A stretch of 43,525 bases of DNA from Candidatus Kapaibacterium sp. (GTDB lineage: Bacteria > Bacteroidota > Ignavibacteria > Kapaibacteriales > UBA4661). The position numbers were made by a program, and so were the translations under genes. The notes beneath the pieces are model-generated. The model ran no database searches. It was not told where the DNA came from and saw nothing but the letters and a program-made list of their open reading frames with translations. The stretch lies in assembly GCA_025455065.1 (NCBI GenBank), contig JALONG010000040.1, positions 1 through 43,525 on the forward strand, in the 5' to 3' direction. This document shows positions 5,441 through 30,170 of this stretch, one piece after another; positions within the stretch are counted from its first letter, which is position 1; every line of letters begins with the position of its first letter.

Positions 5441-6127
5441 TTAATACCCCATGCTTGCAAGCCATGTTTCCGTCATCCCGCCTGATGATGTGCCGGATGG
5501 CGAGGTTTCATGCGGTGTTTGAGCATGAGTATCCGATTGACCATACAGCATCATCCGTTCCACATATTTCCCGATAATATCAAACTCAAGATTGACGCGG
5601 TTTCCGACGGATAATTCTTGCAACGTTGTGTTCGCCCACGTGTGAGGAATCACTGCGACGGTGAACGATGAATCCCCAACGCGAGCCGCTGTCAGGCTTA
5701 CGCCGTCAATGCAAATTGAGCCGACAGGCACGATGTACCGCGCATATTCTTTCGGAAATTCAACGCTCAAAAGCCAACTTGTTTGCTGCTCTTCGACAGA
5801 GCGCACCGTTCCTCGCGTGTCCACGTGTCCTTGCACGATATGACCGCCCAACCGTGCGCCCAGCGCCAATGCGCGTTCCAGATTCACCCGTTTGCCCGGT
5901 TGGAATGTACCGAGCGTCGTTTTCAAAATAGTTTCCTCGACGGCTTCCACATCAAACGAAGCGGCATCGCAGCGCACAACCGTTTGGCAAGCACCGTTAA
6001 TGCTCACGGAATCATCTATTTTGAGGTCGTGAAGAATGGTTTTTGCTGCAACGGAAATGCGGAAGCCTTTTCCTTGCGGGCGCATAGAACGAATAGCGCC
6101 AATTTCCTCGACAAGTCCGGTAAACAT
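5441..6127 (-). CDS. ribE: Riboflavin synthase, alpha chain
   Basis: The enzyme converts two 6,7-dimethyl-8-ribityllumazine molecules into riboflavin plus a pyrimidinedione, the last step of vitamin B2 synthesis in the cytosol. The 228 residues start with the hallmark MFTGLVEEIGAI. Two lumazine-binding repeats follow: the first includes SINGACQTVV, and the second starts near residue 98 with GGHIVQGHVDTRG and includes CIDGVSLTAA. I took ATG 6127 because it opens the family motif and because a longer in-frame start (6184) lies inside the LRR gene's terminator. The last 25-30 residues (rich in S, T and G) extend beyond the usual end. No FMN riboswitch or other rib gene is next to it. Confidence 0.95.
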   Translation of the reverse strand: MFTGLVEEIGAIRSMRPQGKGFRISVAAKTILHDLKIDDSVSINGACQTVVRCDAASFDVEAVEETILKTTLGTFQPGKRVNLERALALGARLGGHIVQGHVDTRGTVRSVEEQQTSWLLSVEFPKEYARYIVPVGSICIDGVSLTAARVGDSSFTVAVIPHTWANTTLQELSVGNRVNLEFDIIGKYVERMMLYGQSDTHAQTPHETSPSGTSSGGMTETWLASMGY

Positions 6128-6155
6128 TGGGATTTCAGTGATTATGTGTGGGGGT

Positions 6156-6191
6156 AAAAAAAACAAATTCCCGTGCAAAAGCAACGGGAAT
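6156..6191 (-). terminator. Rho-independent terminator for LRR gene
   Basis: On the minus strand, ATTCCCGT pairs with ACGGGAAT around a nine-base loop, followed by TTG and eight Ts (A run at 6156-6163 on the plus strand). It lies between the LRR gene and ribE, so the two are separate transcripts. Confidence 0.85.
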
Positions 6192-6221
6192 GAGTCTTCA
6201 ACAGCGCATAAATACGTGTGT

Positions 6222-7721
6222 TTACTGCTGGTCGGAGTACTTAATTTCCGTGTTCGGGAGCAGTTTAATCAACACACCAATATCATTTTTCGATACTTTG
6301 GTATCCAAAATATCCAACTTTTTCAGGCGCGACAAACGCAGCATATCGGGAAGGCGCGTCAGTTCTCTGTTGCGGGCAACATTGATTTCTTGTAAGTCCG
6401 TCAAATCTGCCATTGCGCCCGGAAGTGCCGTAAGTTTGTTATCGGCAATATGAAATTTTTGTAGATTAGCAAGTTTTCCCATGTCCGGCGGAAGGCTTAC
6501 AATCTGGTTTCGCGTGGCATTCAGCATTTGCAGATTTACCACTTTCCCGATGTCGGGCGGAATTGCTGTAAGGCGATTGTTGCTGATGTTCAGGCTTTGC
6601 AATTTCGTCAAATTGCCAATATCCGGCGGAAGTGCTGCGATTTGATTGCCATTCAGCGTAAGGCGCTGCAAATTCACGAGTTTGCCAACTTCCGGCGGCA
6701 TAGAACTTAGTTGATTGCCGTTCAGCGATAATTTCTCCAAACGCGAGAGATTACCAAGCGTTGCGGGGAGTTCAGTTAATTTACAACTGCCAAGTTCGAG
6801 AATTTGCAAATTCACTAAGTTTCCGATTTCTTTTGGCAGCGCCGTAAGCGGATTACTGTTCAAATCAAACTGCACTAGCGAGATAAGTTTCCCGATTTCC
6901 GGCGGAAGTGCCGTTAATGTATTGCCCACGAGCCGCAGCACTTGTAATTGTGTCAAAGCGCCTATTTCTGCGCCCAGCACTTCAATTTGGTTCGTGCTGA
7001 GTTCCAAACGCTGCAAGGCGGTAAGTTTGCCGAGTTCCGCCGGAAGGGCTTTTAACTGATTGCCTTCCAACGCCAACACTTTAAGTTTTGTCCATGTCGC
7101 AATCTCTGCGCCGATAATGCTGATGCGGTTCCGGCTGGCATCAACGTACTCAAGCGCCGTTGCCTGACCAAGTTCGGTCGGGAGCGATGAAAGTTGATTA
7201 TTGCTGACATCCAAAAATGTGAGTTTGCTGAGTTTGCCCACTTCAACAGGAATAGAGGTGAGCGTGTTGCTCTGCAAATTCAGTGTTTGCAATTCCACAA
7301 GCAGCCCCAAATCAGTGGGCAGCGCAGGGATTTGGTTCTGCCCCAAATTCAAGGTTTGAAGCGATGTTAGTTTCGTTACTTCGCGGGGAAAGGTTTCGAG
7401 AAGATTCGATTTTGCGCTCAAAACCTGAAGTTTGGTGAGTTTGTTAATCGTCGCGGGAATAGATTTGATACGGTTTGCGTCCAAAAGCAGTACGCGAAGA
7501 TTCACCAATTTTTCAATCTTTGTTGGAAATTCCTCCATTTGCAAGCCACTCAAATCCAACTTTTGCACTTTATCGGCATTTTTTGCTGCATCGTCAAGTG
7601 AAGTAAATGTTTGCAGTGCATTAAGTTGAGCCGTGTCGAGGAGTTGAGAGTAAACGTTTTGCGGCGACACCAACAACGAGCAACAAAGCAACACCAACAA
7701 CGACACAAGCCTTGAAGCCAT
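6222..7721 (-). CDS. Secreted leucine-rich repeat protein
   Basis: From ATG 7721 the protein has 499 residues: a signal peptide (hydrophobic MASRLVSLLVLLCCSLLV, cleavage near VYSQ), a short linker, then about 19 tandem LRRs of 23 residues almost to the end. The consensus is LQxLxLxxNxLxxLPxxIGxLxx, the bacterial type related to Leptospira-like LRRs. A longer start at 7808 would put 29 residues before the signal peptide, so 7721 is preferred. LRR solenoids bind proteins or glycans, and exported ones often act in adhesion or host and particle contact. The partner is unknown. No T9SS tail or anchor is visible. The repeats are diverged at DNA level, so rapid copy-number change is unlikely. Confidence 0.9.
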   Translation of the reverse strand: MASRLVSLLVLLCCSLLVSPQNVYSQLLDTAQLNALQTFTSLDDAAKNADKVQKLDLSGLQMEEFPTKIEKLVNLRVLLLDANRIKSIPATINKLTKLQVLSAKSNLLETFPREVTKLTSLQTLNLGQNQIPALPTDLGLLVELQTLNLQSNTLTSIPVEVGKLSKLTFLDVSNNQLSSLPTELGQATALEYVDASRNRISIIGAEIATWTKLKVLALEGNQLKALPAELGKLTALQRLELSTNQIEVLGAEIGALTQLQVLRLVGNTLTALPPEIGKLISLVQFDLNSNPLTALPKEIGNLVNLQILELGSCKLTELPATLGNLSRLEKLSLNGNQLSSMPPEVGKLVNLQRLTLNGNQIAALPPDIGNLTKLQSLNISNNRLTAIPPDIGKVVNLQMLNATRNQIVSLPPDMGKLANLQKFHIADNKLTALPGAMADLTDLQEINVARNRELTRLPDMLRLSRLKKLDILDTKVSKNDIGVLIKLLPNTEIKYSDQQ

Positions 7722-7950
7722 GTTGAGGGGAAAAGTTCTATGGTGTATTGAGACAGATTGCCGCATATTTTGACGCTGTTGAAAAAACATCGTAATTGCG
7801 TTGTTCACGCTGAAAAATGCACATTCTTCACGATTGGTGAATTTCTTAACAAAATGAAAGTTTGTGCAGATTAAAATAGCAAATTACGGGAAATTCAGAA
7901 GCATAAAATTCGGTAATACCTCTCTTTTCCCTGAGAATGTTGGAGAACAT

Positions 7951-9696
7951 CTAGTTTTCATCACCCTCTGCACCAAGCAACCCTGCCGGAACGTGGGGAC
8001 GCACCATGACAACTTCTTCGCGCTCCAAAATGACCGCGCCAACGGCAGCACCTTTGGGCTTGCGGATGTACTTTTTTTGCGTGTACGCAACGGGAGAAAG
8101 TTTCGCATTGCGGGCTTTGGAAAAGTAGGCGGCGATTGATGCAGCCTGCTCTACAACCTGTTTCGGCGGCTTTTTATCTTTGGCGGAACTGCGCAAAACC
8201 GCGTGTGAACCCGGAACGCCCCGTGCATGAAACCAATAATCATTCGGCTTGGCAAAGCGCAAGGTCAGTTCGTCATTGTCGGCGGCAGTTTTGCCCACGT
8301 AGAGCGTGTAATCGTCCTCCAAAGGGAACTCACGGAAGCGTGTTGTTTTACGGTGCTGTTCGGCTCCGCTCGTGGTTTGAAGCGCTTTTGATGGTGATTG
8401 TCCTTGTTCTTTCATCCACTGCTCCAATTCGCGCTCGGTCGAAATGCCCCGAAGTCGCTCTAATGCTTGATTGGTGAGAGAAATAATCCGTTCTTGCTGC
8501 TGACGGCGTTGCTCACGTTTTTTGAGTGTCGCTTTTGCAGTACCGGCTTTTTTGAAATACTCTTCGGCGTTTTCGCGCAGTGTTAGTGCGGGTTGTAGGC
8601 GAATAGTGATTGTCTCGCCGCTCCAGTCCTGCGTTTGAAGTTCTGTCAAACCTTTGTGCTGCACATTGGGCTGCGACAGCAGTATTTCTGCCCAGAGTTG
8701 GCGCTCTTGTGCGCGTTCAGCGCCGTCAGTGTCCTGCAAAATAGCACTCAAAGCGCGTTGTGCCTTTGTTAATGTCTTTGTGCATTGGGCTTCTGCTTGG
8801 CTCTGAAGCGCGTGGAATCTTGCCTCTCGGTGCATTGTTGCCAACGTAAACCGCACCGCCTCGCTTGCAGAGAAAAACGTTTTGTCAATTTTGTAAACGG
8901 TTGCATTTGTAGGATGAACATTTGTAGGATGAATCAGCGAAAGCAAAGGTTTATTGCGCTCATCGCGCACAAGCAAAAACTCCTTCGCGCTAAGGCACTC
9001 TCGGCACACTTCTTCTGCAATGCTTTCAATGACGTGTTTTTCCGTCTGCACTGCTTCATCGGCAAGCGTTAATGCGCCTTCCAAGCCTAAATGTTGTTGA
9101 GTACGCAGCACAACTTCCTTCGCATACTGCACACCAAGCAAATACTTACTTCCTGCAAGCGCCTTTTCAAGCGCTGTTTCGGACGGGAATGTGTCAAATG
9201 CCTGATGCGAAGCAGTGTTCAGGCGAAGCGGCGTTTTTACAAGGTCGCTAGGTGAACGAAATGCAGCAACGATGCGCTCTTGAACGTTATTCTCGCCTTC
9301 TTGTATGGTCGCAGGCAGCGTTACAATCGCATTTGCCGACGAGCGCTCGGCATCTTGATTCCATCCCGCAAAAACAACGCAATGCAAGGTATAGGGTGGC
9401 AACGAGAGCGATAACACCCGTTCATTCGTCATTAATACTGCACGTTCAAGGGTTCGCCCGATAAGTTCGGGAAATACATCCACTGTGTTTTTTCGTGCGC
9501 GGTGAAATTCGGGGCGCAAAAAAACAGCACCCATGCGGCTGTCCAACTGCATTTCCAACGTGTGCGTTTCACGTCCGCGCTCAAAGACACAATGCAGCGT
9601 GTTGCGCTCTTGCGTAAAACATTCGGTTAAAAACGTTCCCGCAAGAGCGTTGATTTCTTGAGCGATATGATGAAGAATGTAGTAATGAAGCAGCAT
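7951..9696 (-). CDS. NFACT-family protein (RqcH-like ribosome quality control)
   Basis: The 581-residue protein has the NFACT layout: an N-terminal NFACT-N domain (about 1-200), a helical and coiled-coil middle (about 280-440, with KKREQRRQQQER) and a C-terminal NFACT-R/DUF814 domain. The last includes YTLYVGKTAADNDELT, DYWFHARGVPGSHAVLR and a basic KKYIRKPKGA tail. RqcH binds obstructed 50S subunits and adds C-terminal alanine tails to stalled chains. The catalytically important Asp-Arg pair of RqcH appears as E92-R93 (TNERVLSL) by my reading, so tailing activity is uncertain. A 15-bp duplication doubles HPTNV in the middle region. The gene is 12 bases downstream of the IcmF-like gene and probably co-transcribed with it. 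Confidence 0.87.
   Translation of the reverse strand: MLLHYYILHHIAQEINALAGTFLTECFTQERNTLHCVFERGRETHTLEMQLDSRMGAVFLRPEFHRARKNTVDVFPELIGRTLERAVLMTNERVLSLSLPPYTLHCVVFAGWNQDAERSSANAIVTLPATIQEGENNVQERIVAAFRSPSDLVKTPLRLNTASHQAFDTFPSETALEKALAGSKYLLGVQYAKEVVLRTQQHLGLEGALTLADEAVQTEKHVIESIAEEVCRECLSAKEFLLVRDERNKPLLSLIHPTNVHPTNATVYKIDKTFFSASEAVRFTLATMHREARFHALQSQAEAQCTKTLTKAQRALSAILQDTDGAERAQERQLWAEILLSQPNVQHKGLTELQTQDWSGETITIRLQPALTLRENAEEYFKKAGTAKATLKKREQRRQQQERIISLTNQALERLRGISTERELEQWMKEQGQSPSKALQTTSGAEQHRKTTRFREFPLEDDYTLYVGKTAADNDELTLRFAKPNDYWFHARGVPGSHAVLRSSAKDKKPPKQVVEQAASIAAYFSKARNAKLSPVAYTQKKYIRKPKGAAVGAVILEREEVVMVRPHVPAGLLGAEGDEN
8914..8943 (-). repeat. Perfect 15-bp in-frame tandem duplication
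   Basis: Two adjacent copies of CATTTGTAGGATGAA (plus strand) inside the NFACT gene give a doubled pentapeptide HPTNV HPTN. Confidence 0.95.
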
Positions 9697-23176: not shown

Positions 23177-26671
<3,495 letters not shown>

Positions 26672-26686: not shown

Positions 26687-26716
26687 AAAAACAGCTATGA
26701 TAAAAACAGCTATGAT
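26687..26716. repeat. Perfect 15-bp tandem duplication
   Basis: Two adjacent copies of AAAAACAGCTATGAT. On the minus strand each carries an in-frame TAG, so the duplication spans the stop codon of the DUF4276 gene. Confidence 0.95.
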
Positions 26717-27318
26717 AAAAAATGTTGTACACCGCGCACAAATGCTTGAAAACTCGCCGAAGTATTAGATTCAATTGCAATAATTCCGCCTAAGGCTCTT
26801 GCCGCAGACACTTTCTGAAATTCGGGGATAAGCCGCTCCAAATCTCGTGCTGCGAAACATTCATCCGGCACACGAAAGGCTTTCCGAAGGCGAAATTGAT
26901 TGCTTTTGAAGCGTGGATATACTGTTTCCAATGCCTCCATATCACCCAAATACCACGATTCCAACTCGCGGCAGGCAATCCGAATCAGTGCAGATGATTG
27001 ACCGCATAATTGCTGAAGTTCTTGTTTCAGTGTCCGACAATCATTGCTGTCTTGGTCATGGACAATGATAAATCGCGTTGGCAAGTGATAGCCCTGAAAG
27101 CCGCGTATTTTATTGCGAATAGACTTTTGCAAATCGCTTTTTCCTTGATGAAAGCGAATAAAGCAATTCTGCTCAATAGCGAATGAAGGTGGAAGAATAC
27201 GCGGGAGGAACTGCAACAAAAATTCATACATCGAACGTTCTTCCACCAAGATTTCAACACGTTCTTGAGCAAGATGCTGTTCACTAAACGATGTGGTATC
27301 TTGATGTTCGCCGTTCAT
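26710..27318 (-). CDS. DUF4276 protein (Toprim-like), partner of AAA ATPase
   Basis: The 202-residue protein matches DUF4276: the opening VEILVEERS, the FHQGKSDLQKSI segment, FIIVHDQDSND and the RELESWYLGDMEAL signature near 118-130. An acidic residue after the first strand (E26/E27) and the DxD at 88-90 fit a Toprim-type metal site like those of OLD nucleases, so a nuclease role is likely but inferred. Its start overlaps the ATPase stop by four bases (ATGA), so the two are coupled. Such ATPase plus Toprim-like pairs recall PARIS and OLD-family defence modules. The stop codon lies in a 15-bp duplication. Confidence 0.85.
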   Translation of the reverse strand: MNGEHQDTTSFSEQHLAQERVEILVEERSMYEFLLQFLPRILPPSFAIEQNCFIRFHQGKSDLQKSIRNKIRGFQGYHLPTRFIIVHDQDSNDCRTLKQELQQLCGQSSALIRIACRELESWYLGDMEALETVYPRFKSNQFRLRKAFRVPDECFAARDLERLIPEFQKVSAARALGGIIAIESNTSASFQAFVRGVQHFLS

Positions 27319-28508
27319 CGTGCTACTCCGCTTCCACGCAAATATCCTTGCATCCAGAGCGCACCCAGACTATCGCCCGCAGAGACAAGCCGCGTCGTTA
27401 CTTCGTCATCCGAAGCCCGTTGAATGGTCGTTTGACCGTTGTTTTTTGTGAGCCAAAAAACTTCGTTCAACGTGAGTGCATTGACAAAATCGGGCGAATG
27501 AGTTGAAATAAACACTTGCCGCCCCAAAGCCGCGTATTCTCTAAATTCTTCTGCCAATTCCATGAGCAAATCAGGGTGCAGATAATTCTCCGGTTCTTCA
27601 ATGCAAAGCAGTTGATAAGGAAACGGCGTATTCAAAAGCAGTAGGTATGCGAACATTTTTAACGTACCGTCCGAAACATACCGTGCTAAAAAAGGGTCTT
27701 TGAAACTACCATCGTGAAAGCGAAGCAGAATGCGGGCTTCCTCCGATCTATATGCTTGAACGCTTTCAATTCCGGGTACCCTGCGCTGCATTTTTTCCAA
27801 CACACGCTGAAACAGTTCGGGATGATGTTCATACATAAAATCTGCAACTTGCGCTAAATTATCGCCTGTTGGGGATAAACGCTCGCTAAATCCTTGGTCT
27901 TGGGTGCGCTTTGCATCAGGAATTTGAAAATTAGCGACATACCAATTATCCAATAACTTACGGAAATCAGAAATTGCTTTGAAACGCTGAAACTGCCCCA
28001 AACCTTTGATAGCAAGAATATCAGGCGAATCTAAGCGAAATTCCTCGCGCTTTTCTTGAAAATCCTGCTTTGATGCCGCAAATTCTTCTTCATTCACAGT
28101 AGCAAGTCCGATGCCATTGGCAAAATCAAGAAATCGAAATGGGCGACCACTTCGCCCACGCCGATAGCTTAAAATCTCGCGTTTGACCACAGGCAAGGAA
28201 GAATTTTCCGGCAAGCCGACAGCCAATTCATAGGTAATAATCGGGTCTTTGGGGGTATTGCGAAATTTGATGATGATAACAATATCACCGTTTTGTTCCC
28301 GCGAAACAACCTCTTTCCAGCCGCCTCTTGCCCCCAATGCCGCACGAACATTGGTTTTGAGAGCGTCGCTTAAAAAACCGAACACTTCAAAAAATGTTGA
28401 TTTCCCCACACCATTTGCGCCAAGAAACACGCACATCATCGGTAGATTGCGCACTTCCACACTTCGGAAAACCTTGTAGTTTTGTATTTGAATGCTTTCG
28501 ATTTGCAT
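27315..28508 (-). CDS. AAA-family (ABC/SMC-like) ATPase, defence-type
   Basis: This 397-residue ATPase of the AAA_21/RecF-like class shows Walker A GANGVGKST (30-38), a signature-like YVSDGTLKMFAYLLLL (about 277-292), Walker B CIEEPENYLHP (E304/E305) and a switch histidine in ISTHSPDF (H337). The opening MQIESIQIQNYKVFRS is typical of the family. It is encoded in an overlapping pair with DUF4276. In related two-gene systems the ATPase senses a phage or nucleic-acid signal and controls the nuclease. No methylase or helicase is nearby. The pair sits between guaA (46 bases upstream) and a corC-like gene, an insertion among core genes. Confidence 0.88.
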   Translation of the reverse strand: MQIESIQIQNYKVFRSVEVRNLPMMCVFLGANGVGKSTFFEVFGFLSDALKTNVRAALGARGGWKEVVSREQNGDIVIIIKFRNTPKDPIITYELAVGLPENSSLPVVKREILSYRRGRSGRPFRFLDFANGIGLATVNEEEFAASKQDFQEKREEFRLDSPDILAIKGLGQFQRFKAISDFRKLLDNWYVANFQIPDAKRTQDQGFSERLSPTGDNLAQVADFMYEHHPELFQRVLEKMQRRVPGIESVQAYRSEEARILLRFHDGSFKDPFLARYVSDGTLKMFAYLLLLNTPFPYQLLCIEEPENYLHPDLLMELAEEFREYAALGRQVFISTHSPDFVNALTLNEVFWLTKNNGQTTIQRASDDEVTTRLVSAGDSLGALWMQGYLRGSGVAR

Positions 28509-28554: not shown

Positions 28555-30108
28555 TCACTCCCACTCAATCGTCGCCGGAGGCTTGCTCGAAACGTCATAC
28601 ACCACGCGGTTAATGCCCCGAACCTCGCTTACAATGCGGTTCGACATCCGCGCAAGCACATCATAGGGCATCGGAAACCAATTCGCCGTCATGCCGTCCA
28701 CGCTTGTAACGGCGCGGAGGGCGCATACATACTCGTATGTGCGCTCATCGCCCATCACTCCCACCGTCTGCACGGGAAGCAGCACCGCGAATGCTTGCCA
28801 AATCTCGTTGTACAGCCCCGCAGAGCGGATTTCGTCCAGATAAATATCGTCGGCTTTGCGCAAAATTTCCAGTTTTTCCCGCGTAATTGTTCCCGGAACA
28901 CGAATAGCCAAGCCGGGTCCGGGAAATGGATGACGGTCAATAAACCAATCCGGAACGCCCAGTAAGCGCCCCACTGCCCGCACTTCATCTTTGAAAAGCT
29001 CTCGAAACGGCTCTACTAAGCGGAGTTTCATATTTTCAGGCAGCCCACCGACGTTGTGGTGCGTTTTAATCGTTACCGACGGACCTTTGAAGGAGACCGA
29101 TTCTATCACGTCGGGATAGAGCGTACCTTGGGCGAGGAACTCTGCGTCGCCGAATTTTTTTGCTTCCACGTCGAAGACTTCAATAAACGTTTTACCGATG
29201 ATCTTTCGCTTTTGTTCGGGATCGGAAATACCTTCCAAGCGGCTCAAAAACAGGTCGGAAGCATCAACGAAATCAATACTGAGGTCGAAGTGATTTTTGA
29301 ACAATTCCACCACCGTGCGGCTTTCATTCGAGCGCATAAGCCCGTTGTCAATGTGGATGCAGTGCAGTTGTTTTCCGATAGCTCTGTGCAGCAATACCGC
29401 CGCAACCGTAGAATCTACGCCGCCGGACAAGGCACAAATCACGCCGCCTGTGCCGACGTGCGTGCGAATATCACGCACCGCCGCTTCCACAAACGAACCC
29501 GCATCCCAGCCGCCTTTGCAACCGCAAATTTCAAAGAGGAAATTCGCCAGCATCGTCTTTCCGTCCGTGCTGTGATGCACTTCGGGGTGGAATTGCAAGC
29601 CGAAAATGCGTCGTTCAAGATTCTGCAAAGCGCAATAGGGCGCATTTTCCGTTTTGCCGACAATCTCAAACCCTCTTGGAAACGCCGTCAGCGAGTCCCC
29701 GTGCGACATCCAGACCTGCGAACCCGACGAAACGCCCTTCCAAAGCGGGCTTTCGCTGACAATTTCCAACGCTGCATAGCCAAACTCGCGCTTGGCGGCT
29801 TTGTCCACCGCACCGCCTTGGGTGTGTGCGATAAGCTGCAAGCCATAACACAAGCCCAGAACGGGAATTTTCCTTGTTTCGGCAAACGCAAACACGTCAA
29901 ACGACGGCAAGGGTGCGCCTTCGGCATAAACGCTGAAAGGGCTGCCGGATAAAATAATCCCTCGCGGCTGCAAGCCCGATAAAACCTCTTCGCTGACGGT
30001 GTAGGGGTGCAGTTCCGCATACACGCCGCACTCGCGGACTTTTCGGGCGATGAGTTGGGTGTATTGCGAGCCGAAATCAAGAATGATGATGCGTTCTGTG
30101 TGGTTCAT
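28555..30108 (-). CDS. guaA: GMP synthase (glutamine-hydrolysing)
   Basis: GuaA converts XMP to GMP using glutamine and ATP, the last step of guanine nucleotide synthesis. The 517 residues show an N-terminal class I amidotransferase (C87 in GLCYGLQ, H174 and E176 in FHPEVHH), an ATP pyrophosphatase domain (SGGVDST at 228-234) and the C-terminal dimerisation domain ending in [13 protein letters not shown] took ATG 30108 because it directly precedes the family's start ([19 protein letters not shown]). A start at 30144 would add two TKHQV repeats. No SD is seen at either start. The AAA/DUF4276 pair follows on the same strand. Confidence 0.96.
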
Positions 30109-30111
30109 GGT

Positions 30112-30141
30112 TACTTGGTGCTTGGTTACTTGGTGCTTGGT
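30112..30141 (-). repeat. Perfect 15-bp tandem duplication at guaA start
   Basis: Two copies of ACCAAGCACCAAGTA (minus strand) directly before ATG 30108, in frame with an alternative ATG at 30144. Confidence 0.95.
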
Positions 30142-30170
30142 CATTCGTTATGTATGAAAGCATGAGGTTC

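Follow-up and report, generated by a model that had tools for sequence, protein, structure and literature searches.

The question raised by this locus is whether the two genes between guaA and corC form a two-gene defence system and, if so, whether that system is already known. Both lie in the window, which is the whole stretch of 43,525 nucleotides that was analysed, and are co-directional with their flanks:

28555..30144, minus strand: guaA (GMP synthase), flank upstream of the pair (Pfam)
27315..28508, minus strand: ABC/SMC-head-type ATPase (AAA_21), 397 amino acids, ATPase subunit of candidate system HEC-01, proposed sensor/regulator (open reading frame, Pfam, PADLOC)
27315..27318, minus strand: 4-base overlap of the ATPase stop and the DUF4276 start (open reading frame coordinates)
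26710..27318, minus strand: DUF4276 protein, 202 amino acids, small subunit of candidate system HEC-01, proposed two-metal nuclease effector (open reading frame, Pfam, PADLOC)
27238..27243, minus strand: codons E26-E27, first Toprim motif, E-E-x-S-M in this branch (counted from the start at 27318)
27049..27057, minus strand: codons D88-Q89-D90, DxD motif (counted from the start at 27318)
26959..26967, minus strand: codons E118-L119-E120, proposed metal-B acids (counted from the start at 27318)
25310..26671, minus strand: corC-like CNNM/CBS/CorC_HlyC protein, flank downstream of the pair (Pfam)

The gene pair

The two overlapping genes of the preliminary description are present as minus-strand open reading frames that have positions 27315-27318 in common. 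This overlap suggests that the ATPase and DUF4276 genes are translationally coupled. A gap of 46 nt separates guaA from the ATPase gene, and one of 38 nt separates the DUF4276 gene from corC. A weak scan of the genes' strand, with a regional promoter-like count not above that of shuffles, finds no promoter- or terminator-like site in either gap.

The ATPase matches the Pfam family AAA_21 (1.2e-32) and the small protein matches DUF4276 (1.2e-11, 45.6 bits, cut-off 30.2). The ABC/SMC-like motifs first attributed to the ATPase can be read by eye from its translation: Walker A GANGVGKS (30-37), a signature-like SDGT (279-282), a Walker B region IEEPEN (303-308) and an H-switch STHSPD (335-340). 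Its AF2 model, made from 53 sequences, has a pLDDT of 90.3 and aligns, among the 50 rows listed, with SMC, Rad50 and PtuA heads at Z 19.5-21.8. The solved relatives found by sequence profile include retron and Septu PtuA, TsOLD, GajA, Rad50 and AriA.

The pair recurs as a unit. The genome contigs were scanned with the five closest sequences, and the best 80 of 192 loci were inspected (L054 and L071 repeat loci of relatives). In 79 of these 80, the reading frame immediately upstream has the same orientation and matches the ATPase profile. The exception, L100, has a small gene that starts 51 bases into its contig. Among the 79, the ATPase is only partly present in L092, L111 and L116, and the small gene of L087 is split into two reading frames. 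The same order is found in all six viral-contig loci, in the three plasmid-collection loci opened (of seven matches) and in seven other loci of relatives from the protein search. The loci chosen by Pfam form a test that is independent of the search patterns, and all 30 have an ATPase-profile reading frame directly upstream (split in two in L146). Because the order recurs in 79/80 genome-contig loci and 30/30 Pfam-chosen loci, the pairing is more than chance. Relatives of the pair are scattered across phyla. The phages collection contains no match, and the viral-contig scan with a single sequence returns no relative.

Assignment to a catalogued candidate system

Both proteins have their best matches in PADLOC-DB 2.0.0 to models of HEC-01. 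For the ATPase this is PDLC04144 (E 3.7e-162, 537.9 bits), which matches 56 of 56 scanned ATPases, the window's included. For the small protein it is PDLC04143 (E 5.2e-44). The next-best ATPase model outside HEC-01, among the 25 of 135 matched families listed, is AriA (6.1e-31), followed by mad3, AbiLi (4.4e-22) and NsnB. The small protein has 16 matches at E <= 1; the only one outside HEC-01 is a weak Cas8b model (0.0065), and none is to an AriB or AbiLii model. Judged by these profile matches, the window pair is a further example of the already catalogued candidate defence system HEC-01. The idea of an uncatalogued system is not borne out, since both proteins match HEC-01 models. The HEC-01A/B labels are inconsistent across PADLOC models, as PDLC04144 (B) and PDLC04182 (A) both match the ATPase.

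NCBIfam places the ATPase below all cut-offs and has no match for the small protein. PHROGs matches to the ATPase are uninformative, and the small protein has none. According to excerpts of two papers, HEC stands for Hma-embedded candidate, and antiviral activity has been shown for several HECs, with HEC-06 named (PMC12988326; PMC11411939). In the literature searched, HEC-01 itself appears in one paper, PMC12724379, whose passage on it gives the name and no more. The literature search, with preprints outside it, returned no mechanism for HEC-01 and no paper that names DUF4276. The HEC candidates, we take it, came to light through their embedding in Hma loci, and their protein models do not require such a setting. 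The pair is therefore filed as HEC-01 by its proteins and not by its site.

Neighbours of related pairs

The gene-neighbourhood survey finds relatives embedded in or beside Hma, PglZ and Dnd genes. The PADLOC neighbour scan, at E <= 1e-15, covers 148 of 153 next-door proteins from 86 of 99 loci. Among the neighbour families listed (25 of 71 and 25 of 78) are HmaB (two proteins), HmaC (three), PglZ (two), PglX (one) and DndA/SspA (two), together with a mad2, a DrmMI and a number of restriction proteins of types I and IIG. HmaB lies immediately before the pair and HmaC immediately after it in L101 and L107, an arrangement that reproduces the embedding behind the HEC-01 name. HmaC follows the pair in L053, PglZ follows it in L106 and L114, and DndA precedes it in L051. 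Eight of ten hand-picked neighbours match defence models and the other two match nothing. The neighbour scan is evidence of repeated embedding and not of enrichment. Together with the HEC-01 models, these surroundings support, as a prediction, the initial proposal of a candidate two-gene defence system.

The L051 pair (5603-8540) is on plasmid pSYSM of Synechocystis PCC 6803, an organism amenable to laboratory work, and is immediately preceded by a DndA-type cysteine desulfurase. Genes for RelE/HigA and for nucleotidyltransferase/DUF86 are found near it, as are genes associated with phosphorothioation.

The site between guaA and corC

A universal core gene pair is ruled out, as the pair occurs in 6 of 99 genomes, its own included (protein search), and Pfam DUF4276 in 55 of 296 genomes of the phylum; it is neither universal nor syntenic there. 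Within the genus, the protein search finds the pair in two of eight genomes, the window's own (G000) and G004, and in both it lies between guaA and corC. These two genes are directly adjacent in G001, G002, G003 and G007, with 18-25 nt from stop to start. They are not adjacent in G005 and G006, and G005 has other DUF4276 matches (Pfam). The insertion that had been suggested from the position between core genes is supported by the four empty sites. The window copy stands out mainly by this site between two housekeeping genes. A defence-type pair thus comes and goes at a place where defence-island-based scans would not look.

In the tree of the two flanking genes (FastTree), G002 and G004 are sisters (support 1.000), and G000 branches outside them. 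The protein search does not find the pair in G002. With this branching order, the occurrence of the pair in both G000 and G004 calls for no less than one gain and one loss, or for transfer between members of the genus. The G000 and G004 ATPases form one clade with a long stem (SH-aLRT 100) in a quick tree that used 39 of 53 rows with a phylum label. Between these genomes, dS is 1.49 and 2.58 for the pair, which are saturated values, against 0.86 for corC and 0.69 for guaA, the only usable orthologues for a baseline. Synonymous divergence above that of the flanks hints that the pair was exchanged between members of the genus or evolved faster. The dN/dS ratio is ~0.07 for both pair genes (dS saturated), so they are conserved as proteins. 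Given this ratio and the lack of internal stops, decay is rejected.

The question of a mobile element rests on the adjacent genes guaA and corC, on tRNA and Rfam matches and on repeats around the pair. Insertion by a tRNA-targeting or repeat-framed element is not supported, as the window is without a tRNA or Rfam match; the repeats around the pair are only 14-16 bases. An exact 15-base tandem duplication lies at 26687-26716, at the downstream edge of the pair, and overlaps the end of the DUF4276 gene. It is possibly a trace of insertion or of later slippage.

Fold of the small protein

A Toprim-type metal site had been proposed from E26/E27 and D88/D90, and these residues stand at those positions in the translation. 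The AF2 model of the DUF4276 protein, made from 78 sequences, has a mean pLDDT of 94.9. It consists of strands at 20-25, 52-56, 81-88 and 110-115 with helices between them, then a helical tail. E26, D88 and D90 are at strand ends, and the alternating beta-alpha core of Toprim is present.

Foldseek returns nothing for this model at E <= 0.001. VIA-align, a second aligner run on Foldseek's own top chains, ranks C-terminal regions of OLD proteins best, with 6nk8 at Z 12.5 (rmsd 3.4, 164 aligned). Further OLD rows are 6njx (11.3), 6njv (11.2), 6njw (11.0) and 6p74 (10.6, 132 aligned). The runners-up are PH0156 (9.5), a designed cage protein (8.2) and lumazine synthases (at most 7.9), and the list also includes small Toprim proteins (2fcj, 6.4) and retron Eco2 (5.9). 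With this aligner, unrelated proteins often give a best Z of 7 to 8. Kinship with OLD is taken as real because the OLD rows are above that value and cover nearly the whole protein (18-202). An OLD-like Toprim fold is therefore a well supported prediction for the small subunit. AriB is not among the 50 rows listed, a list that does not exclude an AriB fold.

Searching solved structures by sequence, with either the small protein or its alignment as the query, gives no credible match. Weak Pfam matches occur in the 81 family members, to RloB in three (best 0.0022) and to OLD-like_TOPRIM in one (0.0039). The Toprim-type metal site is supported as a prediction by the OLD Toprim regions, which align best (Z 10.6-12.5), and by conserved acids.

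Active-site residues

The branch alignment contains 81 sequences, the window's and those of 80 of 99 loci; 19 were omitted because they were near-copies, were truncated or distant, or lacked the gene. E26, S29, D88, D90, E118, E120, S187 and S189 are invariant in it, and only the invariance of E26, S29, S187 and S189 is unbiased, because the fetch patterns contained a DxD or ExE stretch. The Pfam-chosen set consists of the 30 best PF14103 loci among 296 genomes of the phylum, which are the strongest matches and not a random sample. E26, D88, E118 and E120 are present in all 30. The second D of the DxD motif aligns in only 3/30, and most of the others have a longer loop there, which makes the equivalence of this residue tentative. 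S29, S187 and S189 occur in 3/30, 4/30 and 3/30, respectively.

The first motif differs between the two sets. It is E-G-x-T-E in 27 of the 30 Pfam-chosen sequences and E-E-x-S-M in the window branch. E27 is found in 77/81 branch sequences, where most Pfam-chosen sequences have glycine. Position 30 is M in 63 branch sequences, A in 12, G in three, and E, L and I in one each.

The relevant passages of PMC6755086 assign E400, D455 and D457 of BpOLD to metal A and E404, T506 and E508 to metal B. They also report that BpOLD cuts DNA and that joint change of metal-B residues, E404 included, abolished linear-DNA cleavage. E26 would correspond to E400 if the alignment is ungapped from the start of the structural match (model residue 18, chain residue 392). 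E404 would then map to position 30, where 78/81 sequences have M, A or G, and the OLD-type acid four residues after the first Glu is missing from the window branch. The invariant E118-x-E120 may match T506/E508, the T-x-E on the first helix of BpOLD's helical part, in space; E120 is paired with E508 as a guess, from its place in the sequence order and at the beginning of a helix. Retron Eco2 has D378 four residues after its first Glu, and its change with or beside E374 lowered RNase activity, according to an excerpt of PMC12405507. The position that matches D378 is not acidic here, which argues against a simple transfer of mechanism.

HEC-01 gains a testable anatomy from these results: an SMC-like ATPase and an OLD-like Toprim protein in which the acids are named and the first motif is altered in one branch. 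New here are a further HEC-01 example, its unusual housekeeping site and the branch-specific active-site motif.

Comparison with known systems

The pair shares with HEC-01 both proteins, for which its models are best by a wide margin, and its relatives lie between HmaB and HmaC; it differs in that the window copy is between guaA and corC, outside any Hma locus. PARIS also has an ABC-type ATPase and a Toprim protein as separate genes (excerpt of PMC12409363), and the ATPase matches the AriA model at 6.1e-31. However, the best HEC-01 model scores more than 400 bits above the best AriA model, and the small protein has no AriB match. The OLD, GajA and retron Toprim nucleases share the Toprim fold and several acids, and their ATPase is related by sequence profile, whereas the window system is split into two genes and has no counterpart of E404. 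Its neighbours are guaA and corC, unlike the GajB helicase of Gabija or the reverse transcriptase of retrons. AbiL is likewise a two-gene system with a TOPRIM_OLD effector (excerpt of PMC10440598), and the ATPase matches AbiLi at 4.4e-22, but none of the small protein's matches at E <= 1 is to an AbiLii model. The preliminary description drew a parallel with the layout of PARIS and OLD but assumed a "different" nuclease partner. That difference is not supported, as the predicted fold is an OLD-like Toprim, although AriB and AbiLii models are not matched.

Proposed mechanism and alternatives

The pair is best explained, with a probability of roughly 0.7, as belonging to the candidate anti-phage system HEC-01, in which a sensing ATPase would control a two-metal Toprim nuclease that stops the infected cell. 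The ATPase, whose head is of the SMC/OLD/PtuA type, is probably in a complex with its small Toprim partner, which it would hold in check. Infection would be signalled to the ATPase by a cue, which may be a phage protein or an altered state of nucleotides or DNA ends, and the switched ATPase would release or activate the Toprim subunit. This subunit would cut nucleic acid by two-metal catalysis, with metal A bound by E26, D88 and D90 and metal B by E118/E120. The infected cell would be stopped, as with AriA/AriB. In AriA/AriB, according to excerpts of PMC12409363, the ATPase senses trigger proteins of the phage, and a Toprim dimer that cuts tRNA is released; tRNA cleavage by AriB, the Toprim partner of the ABC ATPase, is not seen with the E26A mutant. 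For retron Eco2, the Toprim acts as an RNase in isolation (excerpt of PMC12405507). With these two RNases as precedents, the split Toprim of PARIS and that of retron Eco2, host RNA or tRNA is somewhat favoured over DNA as the putative substrate. Against this explanation count the Foldseek result taken alone, the lack of a conserved acid at position 30, the housekeeping surroundings of the window copy with no defence island, the role of the first archaeal OLD-family protein studied in the cell cycle and not in defence (PMC12796447), and the lack of an NCBIfam family at cut-off.

It is quite possible that the Toprim protein instead cuts invading DNA directly, as a nickase or exonuclease under ATPase control in the manner of a Gabija/OLD-like variant, and spares host RNA. 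Confidence in this reading overlaps with that in the sensing-ATPase explanation because the two differ in substrate only. The closest folds are OLD Toprim regions, BpOLD cuts DNA (PMC6755086) and the ATPase resembles SMC/Rad50 heads. However, the split genes resemble PARIS, whose Toprim cuts tRNA, and the missing counterpart is that of E404, a metal-B residue of BpOLD linear-DNA cleavage. A further reading makes the E-E-x-S-M branch a rearranged Toprim nuclease with altered metal-B geometry and substrate, a separate HEC-01 effector that cuts a specific host RNA. The features cited for it are the Glu missing at position 30, Glu27 in place of glycine and the branch-invariant S29, S187 and S189, and on balance it is doubtful.

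Two alternatives place the pair outside defence. The ATPase may chiefly be an antitoxin for a Toprim toxin, kept by post-segregational killing, which would agree with the pSYSM pair beside RelE/HigA and nucleotidyltransferase/DUF86 genes and with related AAA/TOPRIM_OLD pairs that an excerpt of PMC10440598 lists as predicted neutralising pairs. This is unlikely, as relatives between HmaB and HmaC or adjoining PglZ point to defence and the protein search finds no copy in G002, the sister of G004, so that the pair is losable or was never fixed; an addiction role is also compatible with defence and not exclusive of it. A role in DNA repair or chromosome maintenance, with expression alongside guaA and corC, is very improbable. 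The common strand, the short gaps, in which the weak scan finds no promoter- or terminator-like site, the SMC/Rad50-like head and the Cran1 precedent (PMC12796447) are consistent with such a role. Yet the pair is not found in six of the eight genomes of the genus (protein search), the guaA-corC site is empty in four of the eight, and relatives are scattered across phyla.

The window's own genome contains a second, distant ATPase/DUF4276 pair on another contig (C35; locus L042, 9286-11111). Its genes match the HEC-01 models PDLC04176 (E 8.9e-111) and PDLC04191 (E 2.3e-47), and its first motif is E-G-x-S-D.
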